A DNA stretch of 64,000 bases from Straminergon stramineum (lineage: Eukaryota; Streptophyta; Bryopsida; Hypnales; Calliergonaceae). Under the pieces are notes generated by a model. It saw nothing but the letters and a program-made list of their open reading frames with translations. It had not been told where the DNA came from and did no database searches. Positions 21,401 to 45,530 of the stretch are shown here, piece by piece (within the stretch, counting starts at the first letter, position 1; every line of letters starts with the position of its first letter). Made by a program: the position numbers and the translations under genes. Where the stretch lies: contig OY987263.1 of the NCBI GenBank assembly GCA_963920665.1, positions 26,152,547-26,216,546 on the forward strand, written 5' to 3'.

Positions 21401-22467
21401 TTCTCTATGTAGGCATGACTTTTGAGAGCTAAATTGGCTTTACAGAAGAAAGAATATAGTGATGCAGTTTCTGAGGCTGGTCGTGTGCTGAAACTGGATG
21501 AGAGTGACTTGGATGCTTTACTTGTTCGTCGGAATGCATATCTCTATCTTATTGATCATGAAGTCATCCTCAGGTGCTATCCCGTCCTCTATATTTCTCG
21601 AATCTTTTATAAGTTAGTAAATTGTAGTTCAGCAGAGGTGAGAATATTTTTCTTTACAGGTTCTTTTGCTGTCAATGACCCTGGAAGGCTTGGATCTTTG
21701 TGCAGGCATTACCATTCAGGGCTCCAATTGGACCCCGAACACGGAGAGCTCAAGAAGTAGTATCTTAAATTGAAAATGTTGCTAAGAAAGACCAAGGCCG
21801 TATGTCAAATTTCCCTCACTTTGCAGGATCATATTTAGTTGATCTCCGCTCTGTTTCCATCTGTTCCTTATTGCAATTCTTCTCCTGACTCCTGTGGAGC
21901 TTAGGGGATTAATACTCCTATGGAGCTTGACACGTTCCGATGATTTCTTCATCAGTGCTCGGAAGCTGCCTCACGTAGTTGTTCTGATGAGATCTTTCAG
22001 TTCATGGAGTTTCAGAGAAGCCCTCATAACTAATCGAATAGTTGTGATACTTGTAGGCTGATGACACATTGGAAAAGAGAAAGTTCCGCACTACAGTCAA
22101 AGCTTACCTTGCAGCTCTGGATGTTATCCCAGACCATGATCTTCACAACATCAAGTTGAATATGGGTCTTTGCAAGGCACTTGTGCAACTTGGACGCGGG
22201 AAGGATGCTTTGACGCATTGTTCTCTTGTTCTTGAAATGGATGATTCTTCTCTCGAGGCATTAAAGCAGGTGCTGACTCTACATACACCAACTTTTTGTA
22301 CGACATATAGATGTTCAATGTCCTCTTTGTCAACGATACGATCATTGTGCTCTTTGAAACAAATATGATATGTTCATGGCTCATGATGGAGTCATAATCT
22401 ATAGAATCAACTCTGTTTAAGCTATGCAAGAAGAATTTTCCCTGCATTCCTCTCTATGTTGTACTGG

Positions 22468-22550
22468 CAACGATGCTAGCATGCGAGCTTGGAGCAAGGA
22501 GCCTGTGAGCTGCGAGCGTGGAGCTTGTGAGCATGGAGCCCTGAAAAACT
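22468..22550 (+). repeat. Left terminal inverted repeat of the giant MULE
   Basis: It begins CAACGATGCTAGCATG, then has short repeats of the form GGAGC(C/T)TGTGAGC (22,490-22,540). It ends in an A-rich stretch (GAAAAACTTTTCTAGCC) that has a counterpart at the other end (GGGAAAAAATTTCCAAG on the complementary strand). Confidence 0.75.
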
Positions 22551-23082
22551 TTTCTAGCCAAAAAATCCCAAAATATAATTTTTTGCCTATTTATAGTAAA
22601 TTTTGTGACCTATAACCGTTTATCCTATAACCGTGGATTGTGATATGAGGCATTTTCCATTGTCTTGAACTTCTTAATTACTATGTAAAAAGACCTTCAA
22701 ACCTTGTTGAAAAGTTTGAGCACTTGATTCAATGACTAGAACAAAAAAATATGGCAAACGTTGTGATTATGCTACACAAATGTCATTTGGGAGTTACTCT
22801 ATTGCGATGTTTTGACTAGCTACATTGAATACATAGAATAAAGACTTATGTATATCCCATTACGGTTATGATTTCCAACATGCGCTAGTATGAGTGGACA
22901 TGTATGAGATGAGTTGCCAACCTAAAGGTTAGGGTGAGATGATGCCCATAAGCCATTGGGGATTTGTAATAGGCATTTCAGCCTAATCTTGAGGTGTTCT
23001 ACTATATGTAATTTTCAAATCTAAAATTGATTTTTCTTCATGGTTGTAAGGATTGCCAAATGTTGGCATCTTCAAACAAATA

Positions 23083-23345
23083 CTAAAAAATGACCTACTA
23101 AAGTCAAAAAGCAACAAGATGGGAAAAAAATAAGACATTGGATAAAGAAAAAATATAGGGAAAGAAAAAAAAAAGGGAAAAGGAAAAAAAATGGGAAAAG
23201 GAAAAAAAAATGGGAAAGAAAAAAATGGAAAAAGAAAAAAAATAGAAAAAGAAATGGGTTTAGGGAAAGAAAAAAATTGGAAAAGAAACAACAAGAAAGA
23301 AAGGAGAATGAAAAAACCTAGAAAGAAATGAAAAAACTAATTGAA
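23083..23345. repeat. Purine-rich tract
   Basis: Nearly pure A/G on the plus strand with many GGGAAA(A)GAAAAAAA units; the Phe/Pro-rich minus-strand frame here is an artefact of this composition. It lies between the left end of the MULE and the 3' end of the transposase gene. It could form triplex DNA or be a simple expansion. Confidence 0.7.
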
Positions 23346-23636
23346 AAATGATGGAATTCAAAAGGTAATTGAGAAGTTTACAAATGGGTTTAGTTCTGGA
23401 AAAAAAATCAAGAATTTCGTTTTATATCATATAAACCTTACTGAAATAGGGTATAGGGCTTAGGGTAATTATAGTCATTTACATGAATTAACTTCAAAAC
23501 AATTGACTAATTAGATTTACTTCCATATTCCAAGAATGCATTCACCAAAAAATTCTAGAAGCTTCAAATCATTTCAATCATAATATATATGAATGAATGT
23601 AATATGAGTAAGGTACACGGATAAATGTAGCCATGC

Positions 23637-26600
23637 CTATTCTGAAACTGTAATGATTCCCGCTCGAACTAGAAGTACCTTCAATTCACTGAAGCTATAA
23701 CTTGGAGCATGAATGAATTTGTCATCATGGATGTCCATTTTGCAGAAGTATCGGTACAAGTAGTATAAGTGCTTACAATTCACATACTATTGTCGACCTC
23801 CAATGGCAGAAACAGCCATATTCACGAAGTTTGGGCATGTGCATGTGGGAAACATTCCCATAGTAATTCGATAGACGTTTCTATTAGGATCTACCCTAGT
23901 TTCTAAGGAAACTATTGCACCTAGGCCTGGAAAGGGGAGCAAAGTTACTGCCAATATTTGGCCTCTAATGTTGCCAGTACTCTCCCACTTATTCCTTTGC
24001 TCTATTGTTGGTGCATTTGCTATTCGTCGTATGGGTCGGTTGTTTCTTACCATTGGATACATATCTGCATTTGCTGGAGGTGGTTGATTGTACAAGACGC
24101 TCCTGAATATATTGGACATGTTAAAGAGGCGACGAGGTGACAACGTCGGGCGCTCTTGAAGACGGAAGCTAGCATGTTGCAACAATAATGTCTCTTCTCG
24201 ATTGAGATTGGTTCCAGTCAAAACAGGCCATACCTTTGGTACCTCGGGCCAATCTATTACCCACTTATGCTTTGTTCCTTTCATACATCATTCTATATCA
24301 TCTCCACAGAACCAGAAGTCTGCTACAACCTCTCGTTTACTTCCGTACTCTTCCTTTCTCCCGCGATAGGTTGGAGCTGGGGTTCCCTTCTTTCCCCTTG
24401 CAATTTTGGCAGTGCACTTGAGATTTGATCCTCGTTGTTGAGCAAAACACTTAGCATTTGATTTGTGGCTGATCCTTGCAATGTGCCACTTCGATGTATC
24501 ACAATCGATTTCAAATGCAATCATAACATGATGAGAAGGGTCCACCTCGGGCTGCTTTCCTTTATCTTCAAATGACTCAATAGAAGTTGTTGTAGACCTT
24601 GTTCGAACACGTGGTTGAGAGAAATTCACTTTGTCCGGTCTATGTGAGTCCCCTGCATCGCCAATGGGTACATCTAACTTCCTCTTAGTGCTTCCAAAGA
24701 TTTCTTCTCCTTCCAAATGTGGTATGCGAGTTCCAACACCTTTTGCTCTAGGTAATGTATTCATTGCCTCTGCTATCTTCTTAGGGTCTTCGCTTCGTCT
24801 CGCAGCTCTCAACTTCAACTCCCCCTTCGATGGACCAGATTTCGAGGTATGTCCTCTCAAGTAAGCACAATAGTTTGTCATTTGCATCCATGCACAAATA
24901 CTATCATCGCAAGTAGCGTCAAACAAGTTGTTCCCTTGGTTTCCAGACATTTGAAGCCACTTGTTATGAACTGTTTCTGACAAGTTGCATGAAGGCAAGT
25001 CCATCATCTCCTCCAAAGTCAAACCCTAGAAATCCATCCATAGAAATGTGACGTTATAAATTCAAGTTCATGCCTCATAACAATCAACATTTTAGAACTT
25101 AAACTTTCTCTATATGGATTTAAAATGAAAGGACTAAATGAGGGATCTTCCATTAAAATAAAATGCACATTTTTTTGCGTCCTATGCAAACAAACATTGC
25201 AATAATTAGGCAGGGTTACTTTGATAGTGAGAAGAGTATATATCCTGTTTGCATGCTTATAATTTTTCTTAAAAAATTTTAATTTTAATTTTTTCTTCCC
25301 AAAACCTAAAACATCGGTACTGCAAGGGTGTACAAAAATAACCGTCGGATCCAATGGATGTTTCCATGCTACCTTCCAATACCCACATTTTGGGTAAAAA
25401 TGTATAATCCCCAAAACAAATTAAAACTCAAGGGTATTTGGAAATTTGTACTTAACTCACACATGCTTCCTTGAAACCAAATATTATCACATATCTCTCA
25501 CATCTAACAATATTGACATAAAAATGTAAAAGAAGAAATTAGAAAACATGGTTCACTTACCATGTCCATGCAAGCTCTCCATTGATGGTACCTAAATGCC
25601 AAAATGCAAGCCAATGGTCCAAGTGATGAAGACCATCCTCAGTAGCAGTTGTAGATGATAACCACCATGAACGAATGGCAAGGTAACATGTCTCCGCCTC
25701 ATCCATATTCTTCGACTCTTTGTATTGTTTACATAGCCATATATGTTGTTGTTGGAATGTTTCCTTGATGTACTTCTGTGTGTGTTTATGAAGAGAAGTA
25801 CTCTAGTGCAATAAGCATGTCCTCTCACGATTCTCCATTTTGTCATTAGATGAACCATTGCCGTAGACAATACAAACCGCATTCCAATTGGCCATAGCGC
25901 TATCTACCATGAACCCCTTGAAATTTGGATGGTCGATTCCATGTCTTGCCATGACTGCATTCAACGACCTCCAAAATTGTACCTGTACCTCAGTATCTTC
26001 AGATTGCATGTCACATGTTGAAATGGTCATGACCTTCTTGTATCCAGAATCATACACGTGGCAAGCCATTGTGGTCCACTCCTTCATGCGCTTAACGTGG
26101 TCAAACATCATCCACGCATTTTGAAGATCACCTCCAGGTTGCATGCGCCTCACCAAGTCTACTCCGCTTCCCGGTCCCTCGGTGAGCATCTTGAAAATGT
26201 ACACCTTCTCTTTGCCTTGGCCAGGGAAGACACTGTCGTGTATGAATTCAAACTTGGACTCTTTCTTCATAGTCATAATATTGTCGATTACGCCTCCTCG
26301 GTTGTTTGAACGAAATGAAGAAATCACATTTTGTATGTTTGGACTGCTCAAATACTGGAAGCGATCCATGACCTCCTCCATTTCCTCCCCCTTCAACATC
26401 TCCTTCTCTCCCTCTCCGTTATGAAATAGATAGCATGTAAGAAAGTCCTTGCTAGCAGAGAGAGCAATTGCGGAGTTGTTGGTTGTTGGTGTCTTTGCCA
26501 CCTGTTCTGCAATGAGCCCACAAATCTTTTTTGTAGAATCTCTATACATACCCATTGCAACAGGATGACCATGATTTCCTAAGTGGATTGCGGCCCGAGT

Positions 26601-27719
26601 TAGTTTAGGATTCTCACTATAGGAGTAGTACATCCTAGCATTGCAAGTGTCTAGACATGTAGGTGATATTTTGCAAACTTTGCAAACTAGAGTACAATCT
26701 TTGGGAGGACTAGCCCCTATTGCAAAAGGAAAGGTTGTGGATCCATTCCATTCAGTTTCATTGCGTTTTGAAGCCCTCTTCAAATAATCACAGTCTGAAT
26801 TTTCGCAAACAAGGTGACCAGCACAATATGACTTACGAAACTTCAGACTGTTAGAGTTGTGAATGTTTGTTGTCACCAACTTGCACCAGGGGTGTCCATC
26901 GTATCGCTTGTCCATTCCTTCTAAATTCCTTGCTAATGACGAAGACAAAGATGAGCGACATGGAGGCAATTCGAAGATGACATCCCCATCAAAGACAGGT
27001 GGAAGAAAGTTCACACGATGGTGCTTCATATTGTTGAAATCCATTGTTGACAATTCGTTCCTAGACCGGTGCATAGTACTTCGTCTCTTCAAACAATCCA
27101 TTATGCTCACTAGGTCAACTGTAGTGGGATGCAACGGAGGACAGGACAACAGAGATTGTGCTGGACTACTTGGCAGAGTGCTTAGCACGGAGTTCAGTGA
27201 ACCCTTCTCTTCCAATACAGATTGTTTACAACATGTTTGCTTTTGAAGCATTGAGTTGGACAACTCTCCTTCCAACTCGCTAGACAATTCTATAATAGGA
27301 TCTACTCTCTCTACTTTCATTTCTCAGAGCACTGTAGTATTGGGATGGACAGGAAACATTTCACGAGGTGGAGTACATGATATAGTCTGACTGATATATG
27401 GCATATCTACAGTGGATGTAGCTGAATGACGACTTAAGATCTCAGTTGACACACTTAGCATAGATAGAGGAAGTCCAAAAGCTCTATAATTTCCACATGC
27501 AAGGTACCAACACTGTTCAGCTTCTTCCATAGACATAACAACAGGGACAAACTGTTGTACTCCTCCTAATTCTGACTTCCTCTCTTCTTCAACATAGATA
27601 GAGGATTCCACAAATCTAAAGCGGACATGAAGTAGATGTCTCAGTACTCTAGCATGTCCTCCCTCCTCTATAGGAAAAGCAAGTGGAACATTATAACCAT
27701 CTACACGAATACAAGCCAT
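23637..27719 (-). pseudogene. MULE transposase with SWIM zinc finger (pseudogene)
   Basis: Two exons, 27,719-25,561 and 25,025-23,637, are joined across a GTAAGTG...TTTCTAG intron in phase. The start is ATG at 27,719 (MACIRVDGYNVP). The catalytic region has D in ISTCDMQSED and D in KGFMVDSAMANW, followed by the MULE CxxH as RTCLLH. The second exon contains a SWIM finger: CTCP near 23,850 and NCKH near 23,770. The frame is broken by TGA 27,324-27,326, TAG 25,803-25,805, TGA 24,288-24,290 and TAG 23,787-23,789, plus a one-base frameshift near 25,615. Reading through each break continues the same protein. Natural stop is TAG at 23,637. This is the mobility gene of the enclosing element, now inactive. 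Confidence 0.85.
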
Positions 27720-28425
27720 AGTAAGAAGAAAAGTGCTTAGACAATGATGGAAATGAAAGAATTATCTTCATTAAGTACTTCACGCACCATAGTCCCTCCG
27801 CCGTCTAGGAAGCAATTAGCAATAAAGGAATAGGTAGTTCCACAATTATTCTCCATTAAGAGAATAGTGGCCAAGCCGCCTTGAGAGAAAACTTTTATCA
27901 CTACTATTTACGAAAACATTAAGTGTGTGGAGGCGGGTGCGTCAGGGAAATTTCAAGTTCATGCACATGACAAACATATGTACTATTTCATACAAGTTAT
28001 CACATCTTCATTAATTGGATACCAAGAGGGACAGAGCCGTCATTGTTAGAGAATTAAATACAACTACATTGGTGTAGAATCTTTAGAATTGGCCACACAT
28101 TGAACAACTTGTCAGTCATTAGGGCTAACAATTTGAAAATGGGGGCGTCTATCATCAATCCATTGTAGGATGTAGACGTCTAAGCTACTTGTTGATGGCT
28201 TCTTTAGTGCATATAAGTATTCTTCACTTCTCCAGACCGCTATGTGTTTCATGCTGTGCAAGATGGAGAGTACATTCGTTCTATAGTGATAGTTGCGTTG
28301 TGCTTTTCTCTCACTTCATGCTCTTAGACAGTCATAGTTTTTCAATTGTTCAGGGTGAGACAAAGAAGCGTAAGAGGCAGATCTCTCTATATTTCTCATC
28401 TAGTAAGGTATTTAGAAGATCTAGG
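27720..28425. promoter_or_regulatory. Divergent intergenic region (putative bidirectional promoter)
   Basis: The 706 bp lie between the start codon of the minus-strand transposase and the first ATG I assign to the plus-strand methyltransferase-like gene. No other gene fits. A plus-strand frame (28,189-28,632) begins inside it and runs into exon 1, so the true start could be further upstream and the promoter shorter. I did not find an unambiguous TATA box. Confidence 0.45.
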
Positions 28426-28617
28426 ATGACTCGTGGAAAGAAAGTTGTGTCGAAGACTAATCAAGCGACGCCCAGAAACCTTCGGAAGGTCCTTTCTTTT
28501 GGAGGAGTTATGGGTGAAGAAGAGGCTCTTGGAGTGCAAAAGAATGATTCAGCAAATGCGATGACACAAGATACAAGTCCTGCACCAAATGTTGCAGGAG
28601 GAGATGGAGTCTCAAAC

Positions 28618-31020
28618 GTAAGCATCTTTTGATCCTATACATCTATTTTGAACTAGTTGGCAATCAATGAATTTTTTCAGTTCAGGGTTTAGGATGTCTA
28701 ATATGAGATTCTGTTTTTATTTTGCACTTTCAGGTGTGCACTGCATTTGTACTTTAGGGACATGTTCAATGACATTGCAATGCTAGGAACATACAAACAA
28801 AAGGCTAGAAAGTTTTTGTGAGGCACATGCAAAAATGACATTTTGAGATGTTAGATTATTGTTTGTCCACGTCCTGCTATGAAGTTCATAGTGTACACCA
28901 CAGACATAAAGACATAAAATTTTAAGCACTTTGATTGCTGACTTTAGTGACATCTATGTCTGAAGTATGTTATATTCAAAAATGAAAACTCAAATCTGTG
29001 TTCATTTTTGGTTTAGTTGTCCACTTAGTCAATCCACTCATTTCAGAAATTAATCAAGTTGTAGCTTTCTACACACTAATCCCATTTCATCCTAATGGAA
29101 AGTATTCAAACTCTATTTTCTTTCTTATTTCAAAAACACTTCTTTGCTAAAACCACATAAAGTCTTGAAGTGCTTCAAATTGTATGTTTCCTTCTAAAAA
29201 CGTTTAAATGAATTTCAAAATATCGTTGTGCATTTAATGTATGTTTGGGGCCACAAGTTAAAGTATTTGTTAGGCAAAAGTACAAAAGGAGAAAATATTT
29301 GACAAAAAAATTTAATAAAACAAGTGCACATATAACACATGATATCCTAAATGTGACTACGGAGTAGTAAAAAGCAAGCTCAATTGAATCAATATTTCTT
29401 TAGCCTAATTTGAGAATTTACATGTAATTACTTGATGAAAGATTCATTGTGACCAATCCAATTTTGTTACTCTAAATTCTAAATTCTACAAGCATAAAAA
29501 ATTCAAGAATTTATGTTGCTAGAGGAAATGGAATGAAATGAGGGTATCATAGGCTATCCAAGAGTATAAATAAGCTTATCAAAAAAATTCGGAAGGGTTC
29601 AATTGTTCTTTTCTATTGATAGAGGGTACCGAAATGATTATAGTTGGTTAATCTCTTAGAACTTGTAGTTTTCTTCAATATATGTGGAATACATTATAGT
29701 TGACAGTGAATTCAAGAATAGTCTACTCCTCAATGAACATTTGTATTCTTAGACATTCTCTTTCTTAGCAGCCAAGTTCGCACTTAATGTAGTTACATAA
29801 TAATAATGTAGAATTCTATAGCAAAGCAATATGCAATGTAAAGAACAGAACTAAAACTTCAATATCAATTGCTCCATTAAGTTCTTATAAACAATAGATA
29901 AAATATCCAAATTCAAATTGACATCCATTTCATTCTAAAATGGGGGAAGATATGTAAATTAATTGAAGACAATTGATTCCAAGGATGAGCTAATATGACA
30001 GGTGAGGCTCCAGTAATGAAAGACAAGTATCAGCAGCTTTCAAAATCCGATCAGAGTTTCATACTTATAAGTATATTTAGTCCAAAAAAACCATGGGAGC
30101 TAAGCCACTCCTTAAATAGATCCTTGTGCCACTAATAACAGTTGCAAAGTAGCTTAACATAGGTCATGGAATTTTAAATCCAACATTCCACAATTTATCC
30201 TCTTAAGAATAGCTAATGCATTAGATTCCTTGAAATAATGCACCTGAACTCAATTCTTACAGTAACCGCAGGATCTAGTCCTCATCTGAGCTATATTAAG
30301 CCCGGATTCCCAGAATGAGTTGGGTATGGTGGCAGTTACTTCAGGAGCCTAACTTCAGGAGCCTGAACTTGAATTGAGTCACCAGTTGCCATATAACTCG
30401 GAGGAGCAGTAATGCTGAGTCAACGTTCCAGAGCCTGTGTGGTTCACCGTAAACAAGGCAATGGAAGCTCAAATTCAACTGCAGTATCCTTATCTTCTCG
30501 CAAAAGTGATTGCAAACTCCAGCCGAAATTCGAACTCTCTACCAGTTCTTTGCATCTAAAGCGTACCTCACCTCCTTGCAGGAAGAAGAAGATCGAGGCG
30601 CCATGAAGAGGACGACAAGAAGTAAAGCTCGTGAAATTGGGATCATGCCACGCATTGCAGAAGTTGAGGAAATGAAACTTCTTGGAGAACACCAACAAGA
30701 AGTTTGATTTTGTCACCTTCCTCTATCGTCTTTGTCTGCAATGGAGATCTTTCCCTTCACTACTTGAAGCAGTAACGTATTCCTTGAGTAGGTGATTGCT
30801 ACGAAATCAATAGACATGAACAAGTGACATCATCACCGTTAGAAGTTTACAACAAGGATACCTGTAGTGTTCAGTTCTTGACCTCTCCTCTCTGTCTTGG
30901 TCCAATGTATCTCAATCTTCTCACCCTAAACCCAAGATTTCTCCTACGTAAGCATGACTAAGAATCCATCTCATTTGTATTCATTCCGTTTTGGAATGGT
31001 CTTAGCTATACTGAAGAGTA
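28618..31020. other. First part of the long intron of the cargo gene
   Basis: AT-rich sequence from the GTAAGC donor at 28,618 to the start of the repeat array. Between about 30,400 and 30,720 a GC-richer stretch has frames on both strands (for example HRKQGNGSSNSTAVSLSSRK on the plus strand). I cannot assign it. Nothing else is recognised. Confidence 0.45.
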
Positions 31021-33885
31021 TGTAGGGTTCGCTACAGAGTCTTCCTTGCCGTGATGGTTAAACTCGTTGACTATCTTCCTCGCCGTGATGGTTAAACTCG
31101 TTGACTGTCTTCCTTGCCGTGATGGTTAAACTCGTTCACTGTCTTCCTGTGCTTCGAGGCCCGCGTTGCTCTCACAGTCTCTCTCTGCTCTAGAGCCCTT
31201 GATCTACCCTGGAGCCCGTGTTCGAGCTGACAGGGTGACTGAGGCCCTTGTTGACAGTTCTTGGGGTTTAGGGTCCTCAGGGGCATCTCACCGCGGACTG
31301 CCTTCCAGTGAGATCGAAACCCTCGTTGCTCCATACACACTTTCTGTACTCTGGAGCCCCTATCCGAGCTCACAGTGTTATTGAGGTCCCAGTTTGCCTT
31401 CATTGACTATCGGAGAGAGTCACTAATTGTTGGAGATAAACATTTTGTGACTCAAATTTTAAAAACAATGAGAATCATCGATTGTCATTTGTAAATGATG
31501 ACCAGTTTTGGGGGTACTGTGAGGTCCCCCCCAAACCACCGTCGGATCCGACGGTGGTTTGAGGGGGACCTCACAGTACCCCCAAAATTGGTCATTTACG
31601 AATGAATCTTCATTGCAAAATTTAGGAGCAAGTGAGTTTAGGAAAACACCTTGGCAATGCTCCCGAATTCTCGACCTCCGATGTCGCCTGCATCCCTTGT
31701 CAACAGTTGTTGTCTTCCTCGCCGTGATGGTTAAACTCGTTCATTGTCTTCCTCACCGTGATGGTTAAACTCGTTCACTGGCTTCCTCGCCATGATGGTT
31801 AAACTCGTTCATTAGCTTCCTCGCCGTGATGGTTAAACTCATTCATTGGCTTCCTTTGCTTCGAGGCCCGCGTTGCTCCTCACGGTCTCTCTCTGCTCTG
31901 GAGCCCGTGTTCGAGCTGACGGGGTGACTGAGGCCCTTGTCGACAGTTCCTGAGGTTCAGGGTCCTCACGAGTATCTCACCGCGGACTGCCTTCCAGTGA
32001 GATCAAAACCCTCGTTGCTCCATACACACTTTCTGTACTCTGGAGCCCCTGTCCGAGCTCACAGTGTTATTGAGGTCCCAGTTTGCCTTCATTGACTATC
32101 GGAGAGAGTCACTAATTGTTGGAGATAAACATTTTGTGACTCAAATTTTAAAAACAATGAGAATCATCGATTGTCATTTGTAAATGACCAATTTCTGGGG
32201 TACTGTGAGGTCCCCCCCAAACCACCATCAGATCCGACGGTGGTTTGAGGGGGACCTCACAGTACCCCAGAAATTGGTCATTTACAAATGAATCTTCATT
32301 GCAAAATTTAGGAGCAAGTGAGTTTAGGAAAACACCTTGGCAATGCTCTCAAACTCTCGACCTTCGATGTCGCCTGCATCCCTTGCCGATAGTTGCTGTC
32401 TTCCTCGCCATGATGGTTAAATTCGCTGACTGTGTTCTTGTGCTTCGAGGCCCTCGTTGCTCCTCACGGTCTCTCAGTGCTCTGGAGCCCCTCATCTTCC
32501 TTGGATCCCCTGTTCGAGCTCACAAGGTGACTGAGGTCCTTTGTCGACAGTTACAAGGAACCCTAAACCGCCGTGATGGTTAAACTCATTCACTATCTTC
32601 TTGTGCTTCGAGGCCCTCATTGCTCCTCACGGTCTCTCTCTGCTTTGGAGCCCCTGATCTACCCTGGAGCCCGTGTTCGAGCTGACAGGGTGACTGAGGC
32701 CCTTGTCGACAGTTCCTGGGGTTCAGGGTCCTCACGGGCATCTCACCGCGGACTGCCTTCCAGTGAGATCGAAACCCTCGTTGCTCCATACACACTTTCT
32801 GTACTCTGGAGCCCCTGTCCGAGCTCACAGTGTTATTGAGGTCCCAATTTGCCTTCATTGACTATCGGAAAGAGTCACTAATTGTTGGAGATAAACATTT
32901 TGTGACTCAAATTTTAAAAACAATGAGAATCATCGATTGTCATTTGTAAATGACCAATTTTGGGGGTACTGTGAGGTCCCCCCCAAACCACCGTCGGATC
33001 CGACGATGGTTTGAGGGGGACCTCACAGTACCCCCAAAATTGGTCATTTACAAATGAATCTTCATTGCAAAATTTAGGAGCAAGTAGGATTGAGATTATG
33101 TATTCACCTTGGCAATGCTCCCGAATTCTTGACCTTCGATGTCGCCTGCATCCCTTGCCGACAATTGCTGTCTTCCTCGCCGTGATGGTTAAAGTCGTTG
33201 ACTGTGTTCCTGTGCTTTGAGGCCCTCATTGCTCCTCACGGTCTCTCTCTGCTCTGGAGCCCCTCGTCTTCCCTGGATCCCCTGTTCGAGCTCACAAGGT
33301 GACCGAGGTCCCTTGTCGACAATTACCAGGGTTCCTCGCCGTGATGGTTAAACTCCCTTACTGTTTTTTGTGCTTCAAAGCCCTCCTTGCTCTTTATGGT
33401 CTTTGATTGCTAAGGAGCCCCTGTTCTGCCCTAGAGCCCCTGTTCGAGCTCATAGGGTGATTGAGGGTGCTTGTCGACAGTTACTGGGGTTCCTCGACTT
33501 AACAGGTATCTCACCAATGACTGTCTTCCTCTGAGATCGAAGCCGTTTCTCCTTATAGTCTTTGTTTGCTTTGGAGCCCCTGTCCGAGCTCATAGTCTTA
33601 CTAAGGTCCCAGTTTGCCTTCATTGACTATCGGAGAGAGTCACTCATTGTCGGAGATAGGAAGTTTGAACTTGAAGATCTTGTTGAAGATTTCAAATTCT
33701 TGCTTTGTCAACTACTATTCGCATACTACTACTTGAATATGAAGTGGTCAGAAGTCGCTCACCTTGAAAACCCTAAAAGAAAATCGTTTTGGTGGGTACT
33801 AGGATGTACCCCCCAAACCACCGTCGGATCCGACGGTGGTTTTTAGGATATCTCCTAGTCCCCCCCAAACTGGTATATCATTTCT
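31021..33885. repeat. Tandem array of about 0.7 kb units joined at GGATCC palindromes
   Basis: Long near-perfect palindromes centred on ACCGTCGGATCCGACGGT occur at about 31,498-31,610, 32,185-32,290 and 32,950-33,055, with a degenerate fourth at 33,795-33,875. Each palindrome is the meeting point of inverted ends of neighbouring units (GACGGTGGTTTGAGGGGGAC reading inwards). Units share the blocks GGAGATAAACATTTTGTGAC, ATCTCACCGCGGACTGCCTT and a 30-35 bp minisatellite around GCCGTGATGGTTAAACTCG, repeated 3-5 times in units 1 and 2. Copies are 80-95 percent alike by eye. The open frames inside are repeats of each other and not genes. Confidence 0.85.
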
Positions 33886-36800
33886 TAAAGTGTTGACAAC
33901 AAGTTCTAGATGTTTAATTCTAATTCTATATTTATGAAATGTCTTTGTGTACTTCAATGGACATGTGCTAGGTAGGATCTTGGTTGTTCACTAATTGCCA
34001 CTGAAAAATCATTGAATATGTAGACATTTATATTCGCTTGCATTGATCTTGGACACGCGCAAGAAGAATAGTTAGAAATTGCCTTACCCCTACTTGTTCT
34101 TGTTGTTAAAGTGACATAGTTTAGAAATGTTTTATTTTCCAATGTCATATTTGTGGAAATAAACATGGAAGATATAAGATCATTGAATTTTAGGGCTAGC
34201 CAAAGATATTGAGAGAACTTAGAATGCTCTTTTGTCTTCTAGGAAAGGGAATAAAGATCCACCTTGAATTTCTTTTAATTTTTATTGAATAATTTTTGAA
34301 GGACTAGAAAATATTGTGTCTAATAACTTATATGAGCACATATTTGGTTTTTGGAAAATGATTTGAATATTGGGTTTGTTTTTCATTTTGGAATAATTGT
34401 CTGGAGTATGACGTCACTATATTTTCTCAATGATATTGACATGTAAGTCTTAACCAAACTATACTAAATCTAGCATGCTAACTAAGTTGTGTAATTGGTG
34501 AGTACCCTCAATGTATTTTATTCTATAACTTCGGTTTTGATGCCACAAGAACAAATGTTGGTGGCATTGTAGGGACAAACAATTACTAATGTTTCATGGT
34601 CATGAGCAAAAAATGCATTGGAATGCCATCTATGTGTTTTATGATTTTTTGCCCTAGTAGCTTGACTTGGAAAATCTATAACTTCAATTCTACCTCATTG
34701 CTTCTAGTATCCAATGAAAGTTATGGTTTAGTGGTTTAAATATTTTGTTTTGAAGAGAAATTATATTTTCATGTAATTATTAGTTGATTTATATTCATTG
34801 ACGCCTATTGTATTGAGATACATATATTTGAAGTTTAGTGTTTACTGTAATTCATTTACACATGACATTTGAAATGCTTACATGTTAGTTCTGACATGTG
34901 TAGATTGTAACGACCAATCAACACATTGGGCAAGCTTCTTCATCAGAGGTGGCAAGTGTGATGGCAGAGGTTCAACATTTTGCAAACGAAATGGTGCCAT
35001 TGACTCCCATGCCCACGAAGGACAATTTGACCATGGAGGTTTTACCAAAGGAGGAGAAAGAGCTGGTAAGCTTCAACGACATTATGGACGCTTGTGATCG
35101 TGCTGCTGATAATTATGAACATCCACACCTCAGTCGCCATAGTGGTCAGCGGAAAAGAAAAAAAATTGTATTTTCACAAGAGAGATCTACCACACAGTAC
35201 AATTCTAAATGCCATTCTTCAGTGTCGGTTTCAAGCCCTCAAATTGAGGAGTATTGTGATTGTGCATGTAGTGCACAATTGATAAACCACAAAGTGGTTA
35301 TCATTCATCTGAGCTCAAACTCAGATGAAAGTGTTGATATTGATTGAATTTTAATCAAATCACTATTTTAGGAGAGTTTCAACTCTCACATCAATGATTG
35401 TGCCGTCATCTTTAGTAGAGTTCTTTTAGATTGTTGTGAAATGAATGCTTTTAACTGAAGAACATGCATTTACTATTTTATTCACTCTCTGCATTGAAGT
35501 TTCAATGAATTTGAAGTTAATTTGTTTGTTTGAAGATGGAGGACTCTACTATTGCTTGTACACAAGAAATTGTGCCTTTACAAACACCGGGTATTGATGA
35601 CATGATGCAACCTGAGATTGGCGGAGAAGAAGAAGAAAACTTTGAGATAGAGGACATTGATGATGGCGAGGAGGAGAAGGAGTTATTGGAAGATGAGCTT
35701 CGCCGATTGCAAAAGGTGGACTCTGTAGCAACCATCACAAGTTTAAGGATGAAGCCTGAAAAGTTCGCGATTCAATATTCCACTGTGCAGATTGGTAGCA
35801 ATGCCAATGGTCAGATCCACCCTTTCTTCTGATGTTGACAAATTGGAGAGGGAGTTTGCTATTGGATATCGTGAAGGAGCAGCGGTCTTCTATGTTTCAA
35901 CAACAAATGAGTCTGGTGAGAGTTCTACATTCACTGAAGAGGAGATCAATTCGTGGGATCCATTGTGGAAGGAGAAAAATGATAGTTTCAATGCCTATGT
36001 TGATTTGGTACCCGAATTGAAGTTCATGAAGAACTTGAAGTTTTTTGTGTGTGACAGAAATCACCGGCTTCAAGCGTGGATGAATCACATCGGAAGGCTA
36101 TACATGTCACATCCAACGTGGCACATAGTAGTTGACTGCATCATTTTGGAAACAAAAGGGAAAATTGAGTTGGTCATGCAAATGATGCATGACATCAACA
36201 AGTGAGTCACTTTGAAGGCTTTGATTATTTTTTCATTTTGTATTTCCTTCTCCATTAAGTTTTGAGATTAATTTGTTATCTAGGATTTCTGTTACTAACC
36301 TTCTTTGAAAAATGTCAGATCTACAGAGGACTCTCATGTGAAGACTAACTTGGTACATACTCTTTATTGCGTGCAAAAGTATGGGCTTCTTCCGTTAGAG
36401 CGATTTATTGACATGTTGAGGCCCTCAGAGAGGAAACGTTGTATTGTCCAGTCAAGACGAAAGCATTGGTATTCAATGCCGATTGAGGTGTTCACGGCTT
36501 TTGTTTTCCGGGTGAGCATTTTTGTTGTACATAATTACTTAATTGTTTTTGTTTTAAATGATTTTGGTTTATACTTCACTCTCTATTGGCAGTATAAGTA
36601 ATTTAAATGCTGTTGGATTTTTGCAGCAAGAGATAGCGCAAGCAACTGATGCTGCAATACGTTTCTACACTGAGGTGACACCTTTTGATGAGAAGAGTGA
36701 CCAAGGGCTTGTAGATGCCATGAGACTTGGAGCAAAAGATAGGGCAACGAAGTTGATTGCAAAAATGGGGAAGTTGCTCACAGTGGCAAATCCAACACAT

Positions 36801-39800
36801 GGTCCAACATTTCTTCAAGAGGTACATTATGTTTTCTAATTATTTATAGATATTTGTTTCAATTGGCCTTTGCATTTTAGAATAGCTGAAAACAACATTG
36901 CATTGCATTACACAGATTGAAAAGCATTGGACTACAAATGAGGTGCCGGAGATGACCCTTGAAAAACTACAACTCATTGCCATATGCAATATGTTAGCCT
37001 TGCAGAAGACGAAGTTCTTGAAGTGGTGGAACTCCTCCATGCCTTCCCGAGATGCTAGGCGGTTCCCTCCCAAGCCTGTTTCTGAAGAGAAGTTGTTGCC
37101 CTTCCTCAAAAAATGTGTTTGGTGGGCAGGGGTGAGTATTTTTTAAATTTATAAATCTTATGAAAAGTACATGCGTTTCTTGTTTTCATTTGCCACATTA
37201 TTTGGTTTTGAAATTTCTTGGCTTTCCAACAATGTAGAATGAATTAATGAAGTCTTTGTATAGATTGAGGAAGCTGCTCTAGAATACTTCGACAATGTGA
37301 TAAAGAAAGACAACATCAACATTAACATGGCCGCCCCACTTGAGCCGGAGACTCTACTAGAATACATTGAAGGGTGGAGGAGGAAGATTTGGGAGCAAGG
37401 TTTTGGCCCAGTTCTTAAAGGAGCCAATGCTTTCAAAAAATCTGACTCCTTCATGAGCTATGATGGATCAAACCTGGCAGTAAAAAGGGTTATTTTTCGG
37501 TGAGTGTTTGATTTCTTTTAATTTCCTTCCTTTCTAGAGTTGATTTTGATGTAAAATGAGCACTACAAAATTGTAAATCATCACTCTTATGATTCATCAA
37601 AGCATAAAGCACTTCTAGAATTTTCTACCTTGAACCGAAAGTTGGGGTAACATTAGGTTCTCCAAAAAGAACCTTCAGATCCAATGGCTCTTTTGGAGTT
37701 ACTTCTTACTACCCCAACTATTGGTTATGCCATCAATTTCAAAATGTTTAACATGTTACATTCATGATTTTGTTGAAATTACTGTACAATGATGTTTCTC
37801 ATTGTTAGGAGGTCCTTCATGAATGTTTACTAGTGTAGCAATATATTTTCATTTGATATATTATGAAATGTAGTTGCCTTGATATTATACTTTCTAACTT
37901 TAGACTTTCTTGTTCTTTTGTAATTGGCAGTTACTTCAAGCATGAGCTTCTAGCAAAAAATGCTATTGCTCGGGAGGATCTTCCTCCATTCTTGTCCACT
38001 TGGTTGGACCGGAGTGCGTCAGAGTGTATGTACACTTCGAGTCAGCTTCGAACATTTACCACGGCCCATTTAACTGGTGGAGGGTGGTACTTGGATTGTC
38101 CACAGACATTTACTCATCCGTTGGAGGTAGAGTTTAGAAAGTCCTTTGATGGACTTGGGGTTATTGATTTGGATGTACCAGAGTTTGCTGACCTCACGGA
38201 CACTCAGAAAAAGAGGGCCATTGCGAGGAGGATTGTTGCTGACAAGAAGAAAGAGGGCAAAGAACAAGAAGTTCAAGCAAACAAGCAAAAGAAAGAAGTA
38301 GAGCGTTTGGCAAAATTGGCAGAGAAAGAGAAAGAGGCAGAGAAGGAGGGGAAGGGCAAAGGGAAGGGCAAGAAGAAGGTAGAAGGTGTAGACCAAGTTC
38401 TAGCGACTTCTATAGTGGACCAAAGCTCTCAATTGCAAGTTGGATCTCAGAGTGGGTTGAAGAGGAAGGTTGTTCTTGTAGAGTTCACAAAGGATATCGT
38501 CACTCAAGGTACACAAGTCATAGTCCTTAATGACGATGAGGAGGTGAATTCGGAGGAGTTGGTCCTCAACATCTCTATTGTGGACGTCATGGACAATGAG
38601 AAAATTGAAGGACCAAATTGTTATACGAAGGTTGTGGACTTCTTTAAGAAGGTACCCTAATTTATTTCATAGTGCTTAAATTCATTATACTATGAAATTA
38701 CATGAATATTTCCTTTTAGAAGTATTTATTATTTGAATGAAAAATTGTTTGCAGATGTCAGATGGGAAGGCTCGTGTGTATGACAATAATGTCACCCATC
38801 ATCCATCAGTGGACCTCATTCTCTTTGACTGTCAAGAAAATCTACCTGTACCGGGGGTGTCTTTTCCGGCAACTCACGTGCCTACATGGAACTGAGACGT
38901 AGAGTATGAGGCCATAGCAATGGCATTTTTTTTTGTAGAGAAGCATTTGCAAGACCATGGTTGCATCATTGTCTTTCATTCATGGAGCGCCGATGAGAAA
39001 GGCGTCATTGCAGGACTATGTGAGTCGTACCCCACATTTGTGAAGAAGAAGGAGTGGATGGGTATGAATCGTGTGCACTTGACCTCGGCTTTGGACAAGA
39101 CCACCACGGTAAATTTTTCACAATTATTCACAATTTATTGGGCACTTGACATTGTCTACTTTTGTTCATTCATATCTAATGTGTATTTTGTTCCTATTCT
39201 TACAGACTTTAAAGTTTGGCATCACCCTCCTGGTGAAAGACCTTGGCAAGAGAGGAAAATCGAATTTCTCTTTCAAGCGCTCACCATCAATGTTGAAGGC
39301 AAAAGTGGACATTAGACGAGACGACATTTTGATCAACTACACCACAGAGGAGACCATGTTGATGAATGAGGCAACATCATTGCCGTGGCGAGGGGCTCGA
39401 GAGAAAGATGCAAGATTTTACCAATTCATCATTGAAGGGACAATTGAAGAAGGCGATTTGGTTCTGGATTGCACAGCATCTACAGATAAGTTTTGAATCC
39501 AAAAATTGTGAGCTTAAATTCAAATATGCATATAAAATCATTCAAGTAATAAATTGTTTGATATTCATCACAGGTGCTTCTATTACGGCATGTCGTGGGA
39601 CGGGGTGCCACATCGTAGCTTTGGAGGAGGATGAAGAAATTTTTGAAGCCCTTCTTTTGCCCATGCAAAAGCCAACTCCTACTGTGGTGGCAGTTGAAGT
39701 CAATGATCCGCCAACTGAGGTTCCAAAATCACAAGATCCAAATGCCATGAATGTGGTACCTCGGAAGTTCATTCAGAGGGATAGACCTAGTAAGTAAGTT

Positions 39801-40339
39801 TAAAGATTTGTGAAAGCTTTGTGTGTATGGGACTTCTAATGTTTAATGAATCTAACAATGAATCATTCTTGTTTGCAATGCCAAGGGGTTGATGTCAACA
39901 GATGCAATGATGAAGAAGCGAAGACTTCTCTTGAGTCCAGAGAAGTCATTTGATCTTCTAATGTATGCCAAGCAAATGGCATCGGCATTTGCGGAGTTTG
40001 GTTGCTCTAAACCTAAACCCCGTAAACATACATATGCTTTCAATGTTCTAGAGTTCATAGACGGATCGGCATCTGAGGGTAGAGAGACATCAGATTCCTC
40101 TATCAATGAGGATTCTGCGACAAAGTCCAGTGCGACCTAAACTTATGAGATTGACATATCTCATGAGTCAAACTATAAACTATTATGTGTTCATTTTTAT
40201 TATGATTGGATTTGTGTGTTTTATGGCTACATTTTGGATAGTTGGATGGATGAGATTTATTTTTCTTTCCATTCTTCCATTGCTTGACATTTCTTTAATT
40301 GTGTGCAAATCACAGGGTCTAAACCATAAATAGAGGGTG

Positions 40340-40935
40340 TAAAATGGGACCAAAAAATCATCCCAACCAAAGTGTCTTCATAAAATTAATATAGGTTTAG
40401 GGTTAGTATGTTCATACCAACCAAACTATCTATCCAAAACAATAGGGTGTCAAAATTAAAAATAAGATCACAACCATCAAAGTGTCTTTTAAATATTATA
40501 TGATGTTAAATAAAAAGGTCCACACCAATCAAATTGTCTTAACCAAAAAAATAGGGTGTGAAAACAAAATTCATGCAAAGTAAAAAGCCCAAGTGTTGGG
40601 ATCCTTGCATACAAAATTAAATTAACATCCACCACCACCGTAAACCCAAAAAAAATAGGGTGTAAAAATGAAAAAACATTCACCCCAAACAAAGTATCTT
40701 CATAAAAATAATAGGGTGTGGAAAGTAGTATATTCACCCCAATTGAAAAGTCTAAATCTTTAAAACAAAATTGGGTGTGAAACACAAAAAATTATTCACA
40801 CCACCAAAAATGTCTTAACCAAAAAATAGGGTGTAAAATGGAGAAATAGATTCACAACCAGCAAAGTGCCTAAACCAATAAAATTGGGTGTCTTATTGTA
40901 ATTACAAGGGTGTGAAATATGACGCATATAGGGGG
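40340..40935. repeat. Degenerate subterminal tandem repeats of the MULE
   Basis: About nine units of 55-75 bp share the core CAAAGTGTCTTAACC then A-rich then TAGGGTGTGAAA. They lie just inside the right end of the MULE, downstream of the cargo gene. Such subterminal repeats often bind transposase in other superfamilies; that role here is a guess. Confidence 0.65.
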
Positions 40936-41084
40936 CACTATAAAATATTCAAACAACAACTCAATCAAATTCAAATGTTGGTACTTTTTTTTTTTTAAAT
41001 ATGTAAGTCACTTCTAATTTGGACAAAATTAACTAATATTTCCCAAAATTTAAAATTTTGTACATCCACGGCCATAGGTCCGTC

Positions 41085-41170
41085 ACACTTTTTTCTTGGA
41101 AATTTTTTCCCGCTCACAGGCTCATAGGCTCATAAGCTCACACTCACAGGCTTGCCTGCTAGCAACCCTG
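41085..41170 (-). repeat. Right terminal inverted repeat of the giant MULE
   Basis: Ending TTGCCTGCTAGCAACCCTG, it is the inverse of the left end, with GCTCACAGGCTCATAGGCTC repeats just inside and a TTTTTTCTTGG stretch further in. The target duplicate GTTGTACTGG follows directly at 41,171. Confidence 0.75.
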
Positions 41171-42938
41171 GTTGTACTGGAGATCTGAAAGGCAGTAGAC
41201 ATTTGCTTTTGGACCTAGTATCGAAATCCTGAAACTTTTTGTTCCCATGCAGAGAGTGGAGGCAAAGTTGCTTGTGAAGGACTGGGAAGGAGCCGTGGCT
41301 GATTTCAAGGCCGCTATTCAGCAAAATCCACAGGTTAGTAGACCGAGTTTACTTCAAAATTTCAAAGAGTCCAGTAGTAGCATAGAAGTTATAACCAGAT
41401 TTGAGTAATTGTGTGTGTTTTCCAATTTATGCACCAAGGACTCCTGATAGTTCGTCTTTTGACATTTGTCGAGATTTATAATGTGAGCTATGCATCAGTT
41501 GGGAGATGTGGAACTCTCGATTGTCCCAAGGAACTAGTTGGGTTAAATTTCTAACAAAAGCACTGCACATACTTGGCATTTTCAGGACGGTGATCTTAGG
41601 GAGGGTCTTCATAGAGCCAAGCATGCTTTGAAACTGAGCAAACACAAGGACTAGTACAAAATACTTGGATTATCAAATACAACATCGGCAATTGAGATTA
41701 AAAAAGCTTATAAAAGACTTGCACTCCAATGGCATTCTGATAAGAATTAGGATAACAAAGAAGCAACTGAAGTTAAGTTCTATGAAGTTATTGAGGCTTA
41801 TGAGGTGATTTTCGATCCCTTAGCCCTCATGCGGTTAACTTAATCCACTTATGTGTATTTACCTACATTGACCCTCTACATACCATATCAGAAATTGGCT
41901 CACTTAATTACGCTTGTTTAATATATTTTATTTGGTGCTTCATTGTTTACCTTTAGGATGTTGATCAACATTCCAATGATTGGACGGCACAATATGTAGT
42001 AGATTTTTGTTATTTGTAGGATCTAGAATATTTGATTTATGCTATGTTGTTGTGCTACCAAGGTATTCTTCATTTATGAGTGCTTCTATTGGATTTATTT
42101 TTGTTCCAGGTGCTTGGGGATGAAAAGAAGAGGGAAAGGTATGATAGGGGGGAGGACTTGGAGGAGGAGCATGGCGATCTGACTTTCTTAATGCTCTTCA
42201 GGTCTGCCATCTTGTTCCATCAGGCTTCCCCAAATTCTAGTTTAAATGCAAAGGAAGCAATCACTGACAAGAGGCGGGTCAAAGAGGATGACAACACTGA
42301 AACGGAAGCTCTGAGAAGTGCATACATATTTCATTTCCTCCTACGATTGGTAAGTTTTTGAAGTTAATAGTTTCTTATACCAATGAAGACGAACCCTATT
42401 TTTTGGGGTTCTGCCGTTTTCTAGCAGATTAACTAGTGATCATTGTCATTTCTATGTAGGCATAATGTGGATTGAATTTATTGTCTTCATTTAGTCTGAA
42501 AGTATAATGTCACTATCTTTCTTCTATGGTGTGTAGGAAACAACTTTTACAGGAAAGGATTTGATGGAGGCATAGAAACATACAAGAACTTGTTTGCCTT
42601 GCAAGTTCAGGAAGTGTTTATTCTTAACTTTTGCTAGCATATATAATGCAGTGCTCATTACATTTTAGATTGTATGGAGTAATAGTTCGAGTTCTAGAAA
42701 TGTGTAGTGATTTTGAACCTTGAGCATATTGAAATAGCCATGATAGAATTGAATGCACACCATGCCATATTGAGGAACAAAATATAATGCTTATACAAAG
42801 CCTGTAACTATACAATATATAAAATGTCTTTTACAAACCTATGTAGGTCATGCTTGGACCCATGTATTGATGAAAACTTTACACAGATTTATAACTATGT
42901 TGGGATCAAGTAAAGAAGGGTACTTAGCTATAGAACCA

Positions 42939-45530
42939 TTAGGAATTGTAATTGTTGGGTGGAGGCATTGCAGAGAAAGGGAAGTTTGTAGAGTTTGCAA
43001 AATCTCTATAAATTACAGGTTGAGAACTACTTGGGTTTGCTAATGTAGAGGGCAGGCAAGATGAGTGCATAATCGGAGGTGTCATTTGTGGAGGAGGGAG
43101 CTAACCTGTTGCTGCAAGGAAGGCTAGGTATGAATCATAGCTAGGAACTTGTGTGTTAAAGGTTGCTTGTCCTAATGTAGGGGGTACAACTCCAATGGGC
43201 GTCAACCATGGCATCCTTGGTTCTATGCCTCCTATGGTGTGTGATATTGGTACCTGCAGTGAATTGAAGGCAGATGGACCAGCAGACAGATTTCTTGATG
43301 ATCCTTCACCATCCCTTGTTGTAGGAGGTAAGTCTCTCATATTCCTTGGTTGACCTCCTCTAGTAGCTGTAGATGATCTTTTTGCCTTCTTTGCTTGTTG
43401 TTGACTTAATTTTTCAGCTCTTGCTTGCTCTCGTTGTCTTCTTCTCTCACACACTTGTAGCTTCTCCTCCTCCTTCCTTTGTTTCCTCTCTTCACGCTCT
43501 TTAGCTTTCTTCTCCTTGTCTTTCCTTTTTTCCTCCATTGCTATATTCCTTTCAAGTGCTTGTTGCTAAAACTCTTTTTCAGTGAGAATAATTGATTTCG
43601 CCCAATCAAAGTGTACTTGTTCACCATTTCGTCTCTGCCTAGCAGCCCTCATTGGTGGCAGGGTCAAAAATTCGGTGATGGAGGGATTGGGGTTGCCTTC
43701 ATCAACTTGCAATATTGAGGGCTGATCCTCATTGTCATCGTCTTCTTCTATACACTCTAGCTGAATGTAGTAGTGAACTGTCTTCTCTTGGAGCTGGGTT
43801 GGGATTCCTTCTTCAAATATGGTGGAACTATCTTTACACAAGTCTTCTTGCACAGTAGCATCTTCTTGTGGAAAAAGCTCAGATGGTGTCATCTTGTCAT
43901 CCATAGCATGCTCATTGAAAGGTACTATCCCTGTACATTGAAAAGCTTTTTGTATGTTGGCTTTAGTCAAAGCTTTTCGGAGCCCTAAAGATGCCCACTA
44001 TGCCAATAGTTGCTTGTTGGCTGCCTTATTCACTTGATTGCGTTGAGTCCACCAGTCACTATATGCCCTAAACGCATTTTTGAACAGTTTGAATATGCAA
44101 ACATCCAAAGGTTGCAATGCGTGACTTGTGTGGGAAGGAAGAGTAATCATGTCCAAGCCCATTTCGTGAGCCTCCTAAACTACATCCAATGTGATGTGTG
44201 AGCTATGGCCGTCCAAGATTAGAAGATGGCGCATCTCAGGTGATATCCCCCCTCTCTCTTGTACACACTTCTTGAAATGGGCTAGCCAAGCATAGAATAT
44301 TGTGGATGTCATCCAGGCTTTTGGCTGCATAGCCATGCATGCTCCATCTTCACACAGCTTAATATAATCTTCCCGAACTCGTTTTCCTTTGAAGATGTAC
44401 AAATTAGGTATAGATGTCCCAGCAACGTTTATACATACCAAGACTTAACACCACTCTCTTTCATCAAGGATAATGGAATGAACAGATGTGCTACTTGTGC
44501 GTGCTATAACTTTGACACCACCATTTCTTCCAGCTTGGCAGCTTGTTTCGTCACAATTCCAAATCCGATTTGGAGCATAGTGATGTTTATCAGTAAGTGT
44601 CTTCAAATTCTCATAGAAACTTCGAACATTTTCTGGACACAGGCCTTTAGCTCGAGTTACTTCAAGGGGTTGAGACACTCTCAGAGAGAATTCGGGATGT
44701 CGTTTTCTAAACCATCGAACCCATCCTCTGCTTGGCATGCCGTTATCATCCCATGGTGTGGAACGATTCTTTGTGATTTCCCTGACCTTAACATGCAAGT
44801 TAAACATAGTGATGGGGTGCCCTAAATCTGTTAATTTGAAGCACCAATTAAGAAGCTCCTCTTCTTCCTCCTTTGATAGAACTAGTGAAGCTCCACGCTT
44901 ACGGCTTTGAGTAGAGCAGTACACATGTCCACGAAGTGATGTATGAGGTATTCCAAAAACTGATGAAGCTGTTTTGGTCTTCATTCCATTTTCTATTGCT
45001 TGGAGAGCTACCTGTAATTGCTGATATGTCCAATTCCCATTCTTTCGTCTCCTATTTCTATGTCTTGGACATCCTCCTTTCTTCTGTAAATTGTTGTGGT
45101 TGATGTTTTCAAGTGGGGTGGGTTGTTCCTGTCCTCTCTCTACAAATTCAATAGGAGCAGGAGTGGAGTTCATGTCAATTGCACCAGAAGTAGGACATGT
45201 ACCTTGGGTTCTGCATGGAGCTTCAACTGGATTCTTTTGCAACAAATTTGGTCGACTCCTGTTGCAGTGCCTTGTTGATCTGGCCCCTTCTTTCTTCTTG
45301 TTCCAATCTTGTTCATTCCTCTTTTTTGTTGGTCTAGTGCGGTTACTTCTGTCTGCTATGGAATGCTTCTGTCCTTGGCACCTGATTTCCTCAGAGTAAC
45401 AAATATTACTTGCATCTTCAAATCCTTCAGCATTGCTATCATCACTATTGTCCACTGTTTCATCTGAGGTGTTTTCCTCATAGTCTGATCCATTGGGAAA
45501 TCCTTGAAGTTCTCCTTTTTCTACTACCAT
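42939..45530 (-). pseudogene. Pogo/Tigger-type (DDE_1) transposase, decayed
   Basis: One long uninterrupted-by-introns frame runs from ATG at 45,530 to TAA at 42,939 (about 864 codons), broken only by in-frame stops: TAA 44,445, TAG 44,175, TAG 43,998, TAG 43,566 and TAG 43,101. Order of regions: acidic and basic N-terminus; a Psq-type helix-turn-helix (NWTYQQLQVALQAIENGMKT); a CENP-B/Tc5-type second HTH ending near RWFRKRHPEF; and a DDE_1 catalytic core with IWNCDET, then LILDGHSSH, then LPSHTSHALQPLD. The C-terminus has a Lys/Glu-rich coil. No shift of frame is needed. Terminal repeats of the parent element were not found. It lies on the opposite strand just 3' of the DnaJ pseudogene. Confidence 0.85.

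Follow-up and report, generated by a model that had tools for sequence, protein, structure and literature searches.

Why should a giant DNA transposon in a moss carry a gene built from two bacterial-type modules, and what use would it make of the protein? The question is raised by a 64-kb stretch of contig OY987263.1 of Straminergon stramineum (the window), in which a reading made from the sequence alone (the sequence-only reading) had placed a gene for a ParB-like and amino-methyltransferase-like protein in a Mutator-like element (MULE). Our analyses favor an explanation in which this accessory gene belongs to the transposon, its protein of about 1,000 residues combines the two modules, the methylase part is conserved but altered, and the protein would bind the DNA of its own element. 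We give this explanation as a whole about even odds (roughly 0.5); the part that concerns identity is, taken by itself, highly probable.

A transposon with two divergent genes

The accessory gene lies in one DNA transposon of 18,703 bp that also encloses its own transposase gene, carries terminal inverted repeats and is bounded by a 10-bp target-site duplication (TSD), so that membership in a transposon, as claimed from the sequence alone, is borne out (Table 1). A second copy (C9) carries both the transposase (minus strand) and the accessory gene (plus strand), and its BLAST alignment with the window keeps the order of 22468-41170 except at the intron-1 array and at one insertion. Identity is 94-95% in two aligned blocks of 7.6-7.9 kb and 92% at the left end; the five main transposase pieces are 89-94% identical in this copy. 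Both ends were sought in seven copies, and each of the six in which they were located (one end of the seventh was not) has an exact 10-bp TSD whose sequence differs from copy to copy. The left terminal inverted repeat also occurs in L050, L051, L052, L054, and L056. In the TSD-bearing C3 copy (L045), the exons are just 45-73% identical to those of the window, and the still more divergent L046-L049 group has a GCTCAC-rich right end, beyond which its four copies differ. The C5 element is nested inside another copy of the same accessory gene (L042, from about 8384), and the L048 element (about 3031-3108) lies within or next to a related transposase gene.

Both genes recur across the genome. The C-terminal exons of the accessory gene match 235 genome places (150 of 1601 candidates scored), all 150 of the ParB-region candidates scored, out of 799, match at E <= 1e-57, and a 187-residue piece of the transposase has at least 150 relatives (150 scored of 819 candidates). 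Among the 150 scored ParB-region matches, 93 have a scored transposase match within 20 kb, a lower bound, as 150 matches were scored in each set; in 89 the transposase is upstream on the opposite strand, 5.1-18 kb away. Random placement, in a control that used an assumed length for contig C10, gave a mean of 2.7 and a maximum of 8 over 200 trials. This is in agreement with the expectation of the sequence-only reading that homologs would be found beside transposases. An ordinary host gene was rejected as an explanation, the copies being within repeated elements with TSDs beside a transposase. With the recent pair C8/C5 set aside, 15 of 30 comparisons gave a ratio of nonsynonymous to synonymous substitution rates (dN/dS) of 0.09-0.33, the other 15 being saturated and giving no value; within the pair it was 0.37-0.69, which fits decay after insertion, as expected. 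The accessory gene is under purifying selection in at least 150 places, and chance open reading frames were rejected by dN/dS together with copy number.

The gene starts with an ATG at 28426 and, with its TAA at 40138-40140, extends to 40140 rather than to 39953, where it had first been taken to end. The earlier count of about 12 exons stands (pieces E3 and E4 being treated as one exon, as in other copies), but not the claim that they are in phase, since the copy in the window lacks 2 nt near 35764 that C9, C8, and C5 have, and shows an in-frame TGA at 38893 (exon 9), a lost splice donor after the DCTAST exon (exon 10), and a lost acceptor ahead of exon 12. No intact full-length copy was found among the seven read over most exons, each of which has a stop or a frameshift.

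The ParB-like and methyltransferase-derived regions

The predicted order of the protein is an acidic N-terminus, a ParB/sulfiredoxin-fold region, a conserved middle, a Lys/Glu-rich linker, and a methyltransferase-derived C-terminus. Several lines of evidence support the last of these as a permuted domain derived from beta-class amino-methyltransferases. PF01555 is found in 6/6 members at E <= 1 (best E 2.2e-6), and the divergent L047 member, the one of the six for which a bit score is given, lies above the cut-off (28.2 versus 26.7 bits). PHROG DNA methyltransferases were likewise matched in 6/6 members (best 6.8e-8), the adenine methylase 5hfj in the PDB was matched at E 3.1e-4, and the adenine methylase of phage Stau2 was matched at E 4e-4 with 91% of the query aligned. 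The PF01555 match foreseen by the sequence-only reading was thus obtained in relatives but not in the window, whose own copy scored 14.7 bits, under the cut-off, and an exon-by-exon PF01555 scan of the genome gave no place above it. The motif IV position precedes motif I, as had been noticed (DCQEN at 38827, then DCTAST at 39467).

Beta-class enzymes typically carry (D/N/S)PP(Y/F/W) at motif IV and FxGxG at motif I. At the motif IV columns of the 30-row alignment A4 we found instead DVPE in 11 rows, DCQE in 9, DCPE in 5, and DVLE, DVPK, DIPE, DMPE, and DCHE once each; the Asp is kept in 30/30 rows, and a DPPY-type motif occurs in 0/30 of these rows and in 0/32 genome rows (29 distinct copies), among which DCQE is the commonest (16/32) and decayed copies vary. 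Motif I of the genome loci is of a TxST type (DCTAST, DCTTST, or close variants) in place of FxGxG. The placement of motif IV follows the HMMER alignment, which sets DPPY opposite the D..E site without a gap and at a low score; BLASTP with the phage methylase instead sets the phage PPY opposite a PPGP lying 12 residues past the DVPE site. Because the replacement at motif IV is shared across rows, it is old and conserved rather than the decay of one copy, so that the exchange of DPPY for DCQE noticed in the window, and the caution about catalysis that went with it, hold for the aligned family. The replacement of catalytic motifs in 30/30 rows, combined with the low dN/dS, points to a conserved methylase that is altered or inactive, and catalysis appears doubtful. 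Descent from beta-class amino-methyltransferases, as suggested by these motifs and matches, does not imply membership among the working enzymes.

For the N-terminal region, the evidence for a ParB/sulfiredoxin fold is weak but consistent and comes from structure prediction. A model predicted from alignment A3 (77 homologs) averaged 64.5 in predicted local distance difference test score (pLDDT), rising to 85-95 over residues 141-220. Confidence is low for both predicted models, and none of the fold comparisons reached an E-value of 0.001. Among the 50 matches listed by the VIA structure comparison, 13 cover residues 82-246 and the other 37 match a C-terminal helix only; 12 of the 13 are sulfiredoxin (4), Noc (2), ParB (2), SbnI (2), SerK, and PadC, and the thirteenth is Atu1540, whose title names no fold. 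Foldseek placed the unrelated TCTP first (E 0.23) and sulfiredoxin second (E 0.26), and a viral structure library placed a phage ParB first (E 0.21), with 6 of its 50 listed matches named as ParB, Spo0J, partitioning, sulfiredoxin, or sulfur-modification proteins. The ParB-like domain of the sequence-only reading is thus upheld by structure comparison but not by the sequence match to PF02195 that it had predicted, the ParB region having matched no ParB sequence profile, PF02195 included, and no PDB sequence. Over the 77 homologs, Pfam gave weak matches to DUF1015 in 7 (best 0.002) and to DndB and DUF6551 in one each; the unrelated KMP11 was also matched in 7. The whole read-through protein had no match in a set of 5.8 billion sequences.

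The motif first read as CDxNHRLQAW is present from 36050. Its first Arg stands in place of Gly in the window copy, a further mark of decay there, all other copies read having CDGNHR. Alignments A1 and A2 recruited 29 and 546 proteins, respectively, and of the 120 homologs listed among the 546, 105 have DGNHR, 6 have variants, and 9 have no match to the pattern. According to the passages cited from PMC12704722, ParB-fold proteins depend on a Box II Arg to bind nucleotide, and the moss Box II has a conserved Arg (G..R).

This architecture is already precedented in eukaryotic transposons. In the passages cited from PMC12477816, Sola1-1_Ec32 of Ectocarpus, a 21.5-kb element, encodes opposite its transposase a 1104-residue protein with ParB-like and N4/N6 methyltransferase domains, and ParB-methyltransferase accessory genes are described in transposons of brown, green, and red algae. 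As in that element, the two domains of the moss protein are in one chain, on the strand opposite to the transposase and in a giant eukaryotic DNA transposon; unlike the moss element, the element of the brown alga is of the Sola1 superfamily, and the likeness drawn here is one of domain content and gene arrangement as described. For the Ectocarpus gene, the cited passages mention neither catalytic motifs nor copy number, and no sub-terminal arrays. In the light of this precedent, as far as the cited passages go, the moss gene is a further variant rather than the first of its kind. Phage and bacterial ParB-methyltransferase fusions tied to mobile elements, as described in the parts of PMC12704722 and PMC5512222 cited here, share the two kinds of domain and the mobile-element link, whereas the moss protein is longer, has introns, a conserved middle region, and replaced catalytic motifs, and its ParB region gave no match in a tblastn search of phages. 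Similarly, the methylases CcrM, M1.HpyAVI (5hfj), and Stau2 are alignable and have motif IV ahead of motif I, but their DPPY and FxGxG are replaced in the moss protein. Searches of open-licence papers showed no case of a ParB-methyltransferase accessory gene in a land plant or a MULE. With the moss gene, this sparsely documented class of transposon-borne proteins reaches beyond algae, to a MULE-type element in a plant-like genome.

Possible roles of the protein

Selection has maintained the two bacterial-type modules at 150 or more places; the transposon therefore probably uses the protein on its own DNA, to handle or unsilence it. The functional step by itself, that the protein acts on the DNA of the element for unsilencing or to help transposition, is drawn by analogy, and we hold it tentatively, at somewhat under even odds. 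The sequence-only reading had put forward modification of the element's own DNA or counter-silencing as possible uses. In the mechanism that we propose, the catalytic and S-adenosylmethionine motifs of the methylase domain would have been replaced early and conserved afterwards, the ParB domain would be a clamp switched by nucleotide, and the methylase-derived domain may bind or read DNA instead of working as a normal methylase. The protein would bind noncoding DNA of its own element, and the complex would either hold off silencing, in the way that VANC acts for VANDAL MULEs, or assist the transposase.

The best candidate for the binding site would be the tandem arrays. In the window, AATAGGGTGT occurs five times in the sub-terminal array, with no other occurrence on the two strands of the 64 kb, and the array lies between the accessory gene and the right end, stopping about 260 bp short of the latter. 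Related arrays are present in the C9, C8, and C5 copies, the L046-L049 group has in that position a different array, with 23/46/55-bp units, and L036 has 1.9 units of 48 bp, so that sub-terminal tandem arrays differ between subfamilies. In six other loci, with 470-490 bp to search, Tandem Repeats Finder gave no array; L010, which is the C9 copy and one of the six, has the degenerate array. VANC proteins, according to the cited parts of PMC5735166 and PMC10398659, bind motifs in noncoding tandem repeats and cause methylation loss in VANDAL MULEs. The two systems are alike in being accessory proteins of plant MULE-type elements whose noncoding tandem arrays differ between subfamilies, and unlike in that the cited parts mention no ParB or methylase domain for VANC and in that function has been shown for VANC, whereas here it is suggested by likeness. 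Transitions between the window and C9 fall at 124/563 CG, 132/626 CHG, and 251/4791 CHH sites, a pattern that is, as judged from the substitutions, the footprint of host CG and CHG cytosine methylation, in line with a plant genome. Replaced catalytic motifs that were then conserved raise the question of whether a transposon may use a methylase fold as a reader, or as a clamp, to counter DNA methylation by its host. More speculatively, and with the odds against it, MULE-type elements may have turned a prokaryotic-type ParB-methylase into a catalytically dead, self-specific clamp on fast-evolving subfamily arrays that blocks host methylation, which would be a second anti-silencing system evolved independently of VANC.

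The protein might instead be an accessory factor of transposition that binds the sub-terminal repeats to assemble or position the transposase and has no epigenetic role. The recurrent divergent pairing with the transposase and the position of the array end near the right end are in keeping with this, but it leaves the methylase-derived domain unexplained by itself, and the left end shows only an A-rich repeat (23144-23288); we consider it improbable. Slightly less probable again is that the protein still works as an amino-methyltransferase, its motif IV altered but functional, and places 6mA or 4mC on the DNA of the element. Such an enzyme would agree with the invariant motif IV Asp, with purifying selection on the permuted domain, and with the suggestion, in the cited passages of the Ectocarpus paper (PMC12477816), of binding and modification of a transposon's own sequence, but no aligned row carries the beta-class motif IV and the genome loci have lost FxGxG.

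Our preferred explanation, in which an altered methylase binds the element's own DNA, takes the comparison with VANC as one between MULEs. MULE TSDs are typically 8-11 bp long, and the element is assigned to the MULE type by its TSD length, its terminal repeats, and a SWIM-like CxC..CxH motif seen by eye at the C-terminus of the transposase (CTCPNF...CKHLYYL, near 23760-23850), where the SWIM profile PF04434 matched weakly (E 0.62) at the expected place; a DDE-like region was seen by eye at 25803-26400. The sequence-only reading of a MULE is retained on these features, its SWIM-type part tentatively; neither PF10551 (the MULE transposase domain) nor any other transposase Pfam matched the pieces of the window or C9. 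This, and the lack of tblastn similarity to the 8 of the genome's 26 PF10551 loci that were compared, would suit an element of another superfamily, for which MULE and VANC would be an analogy only, but given the 10-bp TSDs, the terminal repeats, and the C-terminal motif we regard this as unlikely. That a host or bacterial gene was captured once as passive cargo, like a Pack-MULE hitchhiker, is very improbable, even if MULEs tend to pick up host gene fragments (as stated in the cited part of PMC6446971), since dN/dS near 1 would be expected between deep subfamilies, whereas purifying selection was found among diverged copies wherever it was measurable, and many divergent copies adjoin a transposase.

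Coordinates and neighboring sequence

Table 1. Features of the transposon and its accessory gene, in positions of the window.
Feature	Position	Strand	Remarks
Left TSD copy, 10 bp	22458..22467	.	GTTGTACTGG; same word at 41171-41180
Right TSD copy	41171..41180	.	Matches left copy, GTTGTACTGG
Whole transposon	22468..41170	+	Ends CAACGATGCTAGCA ... TGCTAGCAACCCTG; colinear C9 copy with its own 10-bp TSD
Left terminal inverted repeat	22468..22510	+	Imperfect, approximate limits; inverse of right end across GCTAGCA block
Right terminal inverted repeat	41128..41170	-	Imperfect, approximate limits
Transposase gene	23630..27900	-	Decayed in the window, approximate limits; from open reading frames and sequence
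ParB/methyltransferase-like accessory gene	28426..40140	+	About 12 exons; divergent from transposase; copy decayed
Exon 1	28426..28617	+	GT donor next; 89% match in C9
Intron 1	28618..34957	+	Complex repeat and palindrome array at ~31.0-33.9 kb
Exon 2	34958..35065	+	Acceptor uncertain
Exon 3	35536..36201	+	Acidic N-part and ParB/sulfiredoxin-like core
Box II-like motif	36050..36079	+	CDRNHRLQAW
Exon 4	36319..36511	+	Continues past ParB core; TEDSHVKTNLVH
Exons 5-7	36627-36821, 36916-37131, 37264-37499	+	Conserved middle region
Exon 8	37931..38651	+	Conserved part and Lys/Glu-rich linker
Exon 9	38755..39108	+	Methyltransferase-like half; DCQEN (38827) at motif IV position
Exon 10	39206..39485	+	Motif X region and beginning of motif I, GDLVLDCTAST (DCTAST 39467)
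Exon 11	39574..39793	+	Remainder of motif I and next region, GASITACRGT..HIVALEED
Exon 12	39879..40140	+	TAA-terminated
Sub-terminal noncoding tandem array	40334..40913	+	Unit of ~56 bp; AATAGGGTGT at 5 unit starts

The array of intron 1 contains four long palindromes (31498-31605, 32174-32291, 32940-33057, and 33788-33874) with arms of 41-59 nt and no spacer. The intron-1 arrays of the window and L044 are unrelated; at 6052-9000 of L044, upstream of exon 3, lies a satellite of 344 bp x 8.5 with no BLAST similarity to the intron array of the window.

On the right, the host flank (41200-42350, plus strand) has TPR- and DnaJ-like coding pieces, with weak TPR matches in Pfam (E ~0.1) and no DnaJ match there. 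We take these pieces to resemble P58IPK/DNAJC3, and the insertion seems to be within or next to a gene of this kind. Further on, a piece of a different transposon (43998-44174, minus strand) encodes part of a DDE_1 transposase of the pogo/CENP-B type (PF03184, E 7.2e-7), and a tRNA-Arg (CCG) lies at 2885-2957 on the plus strand of the window.

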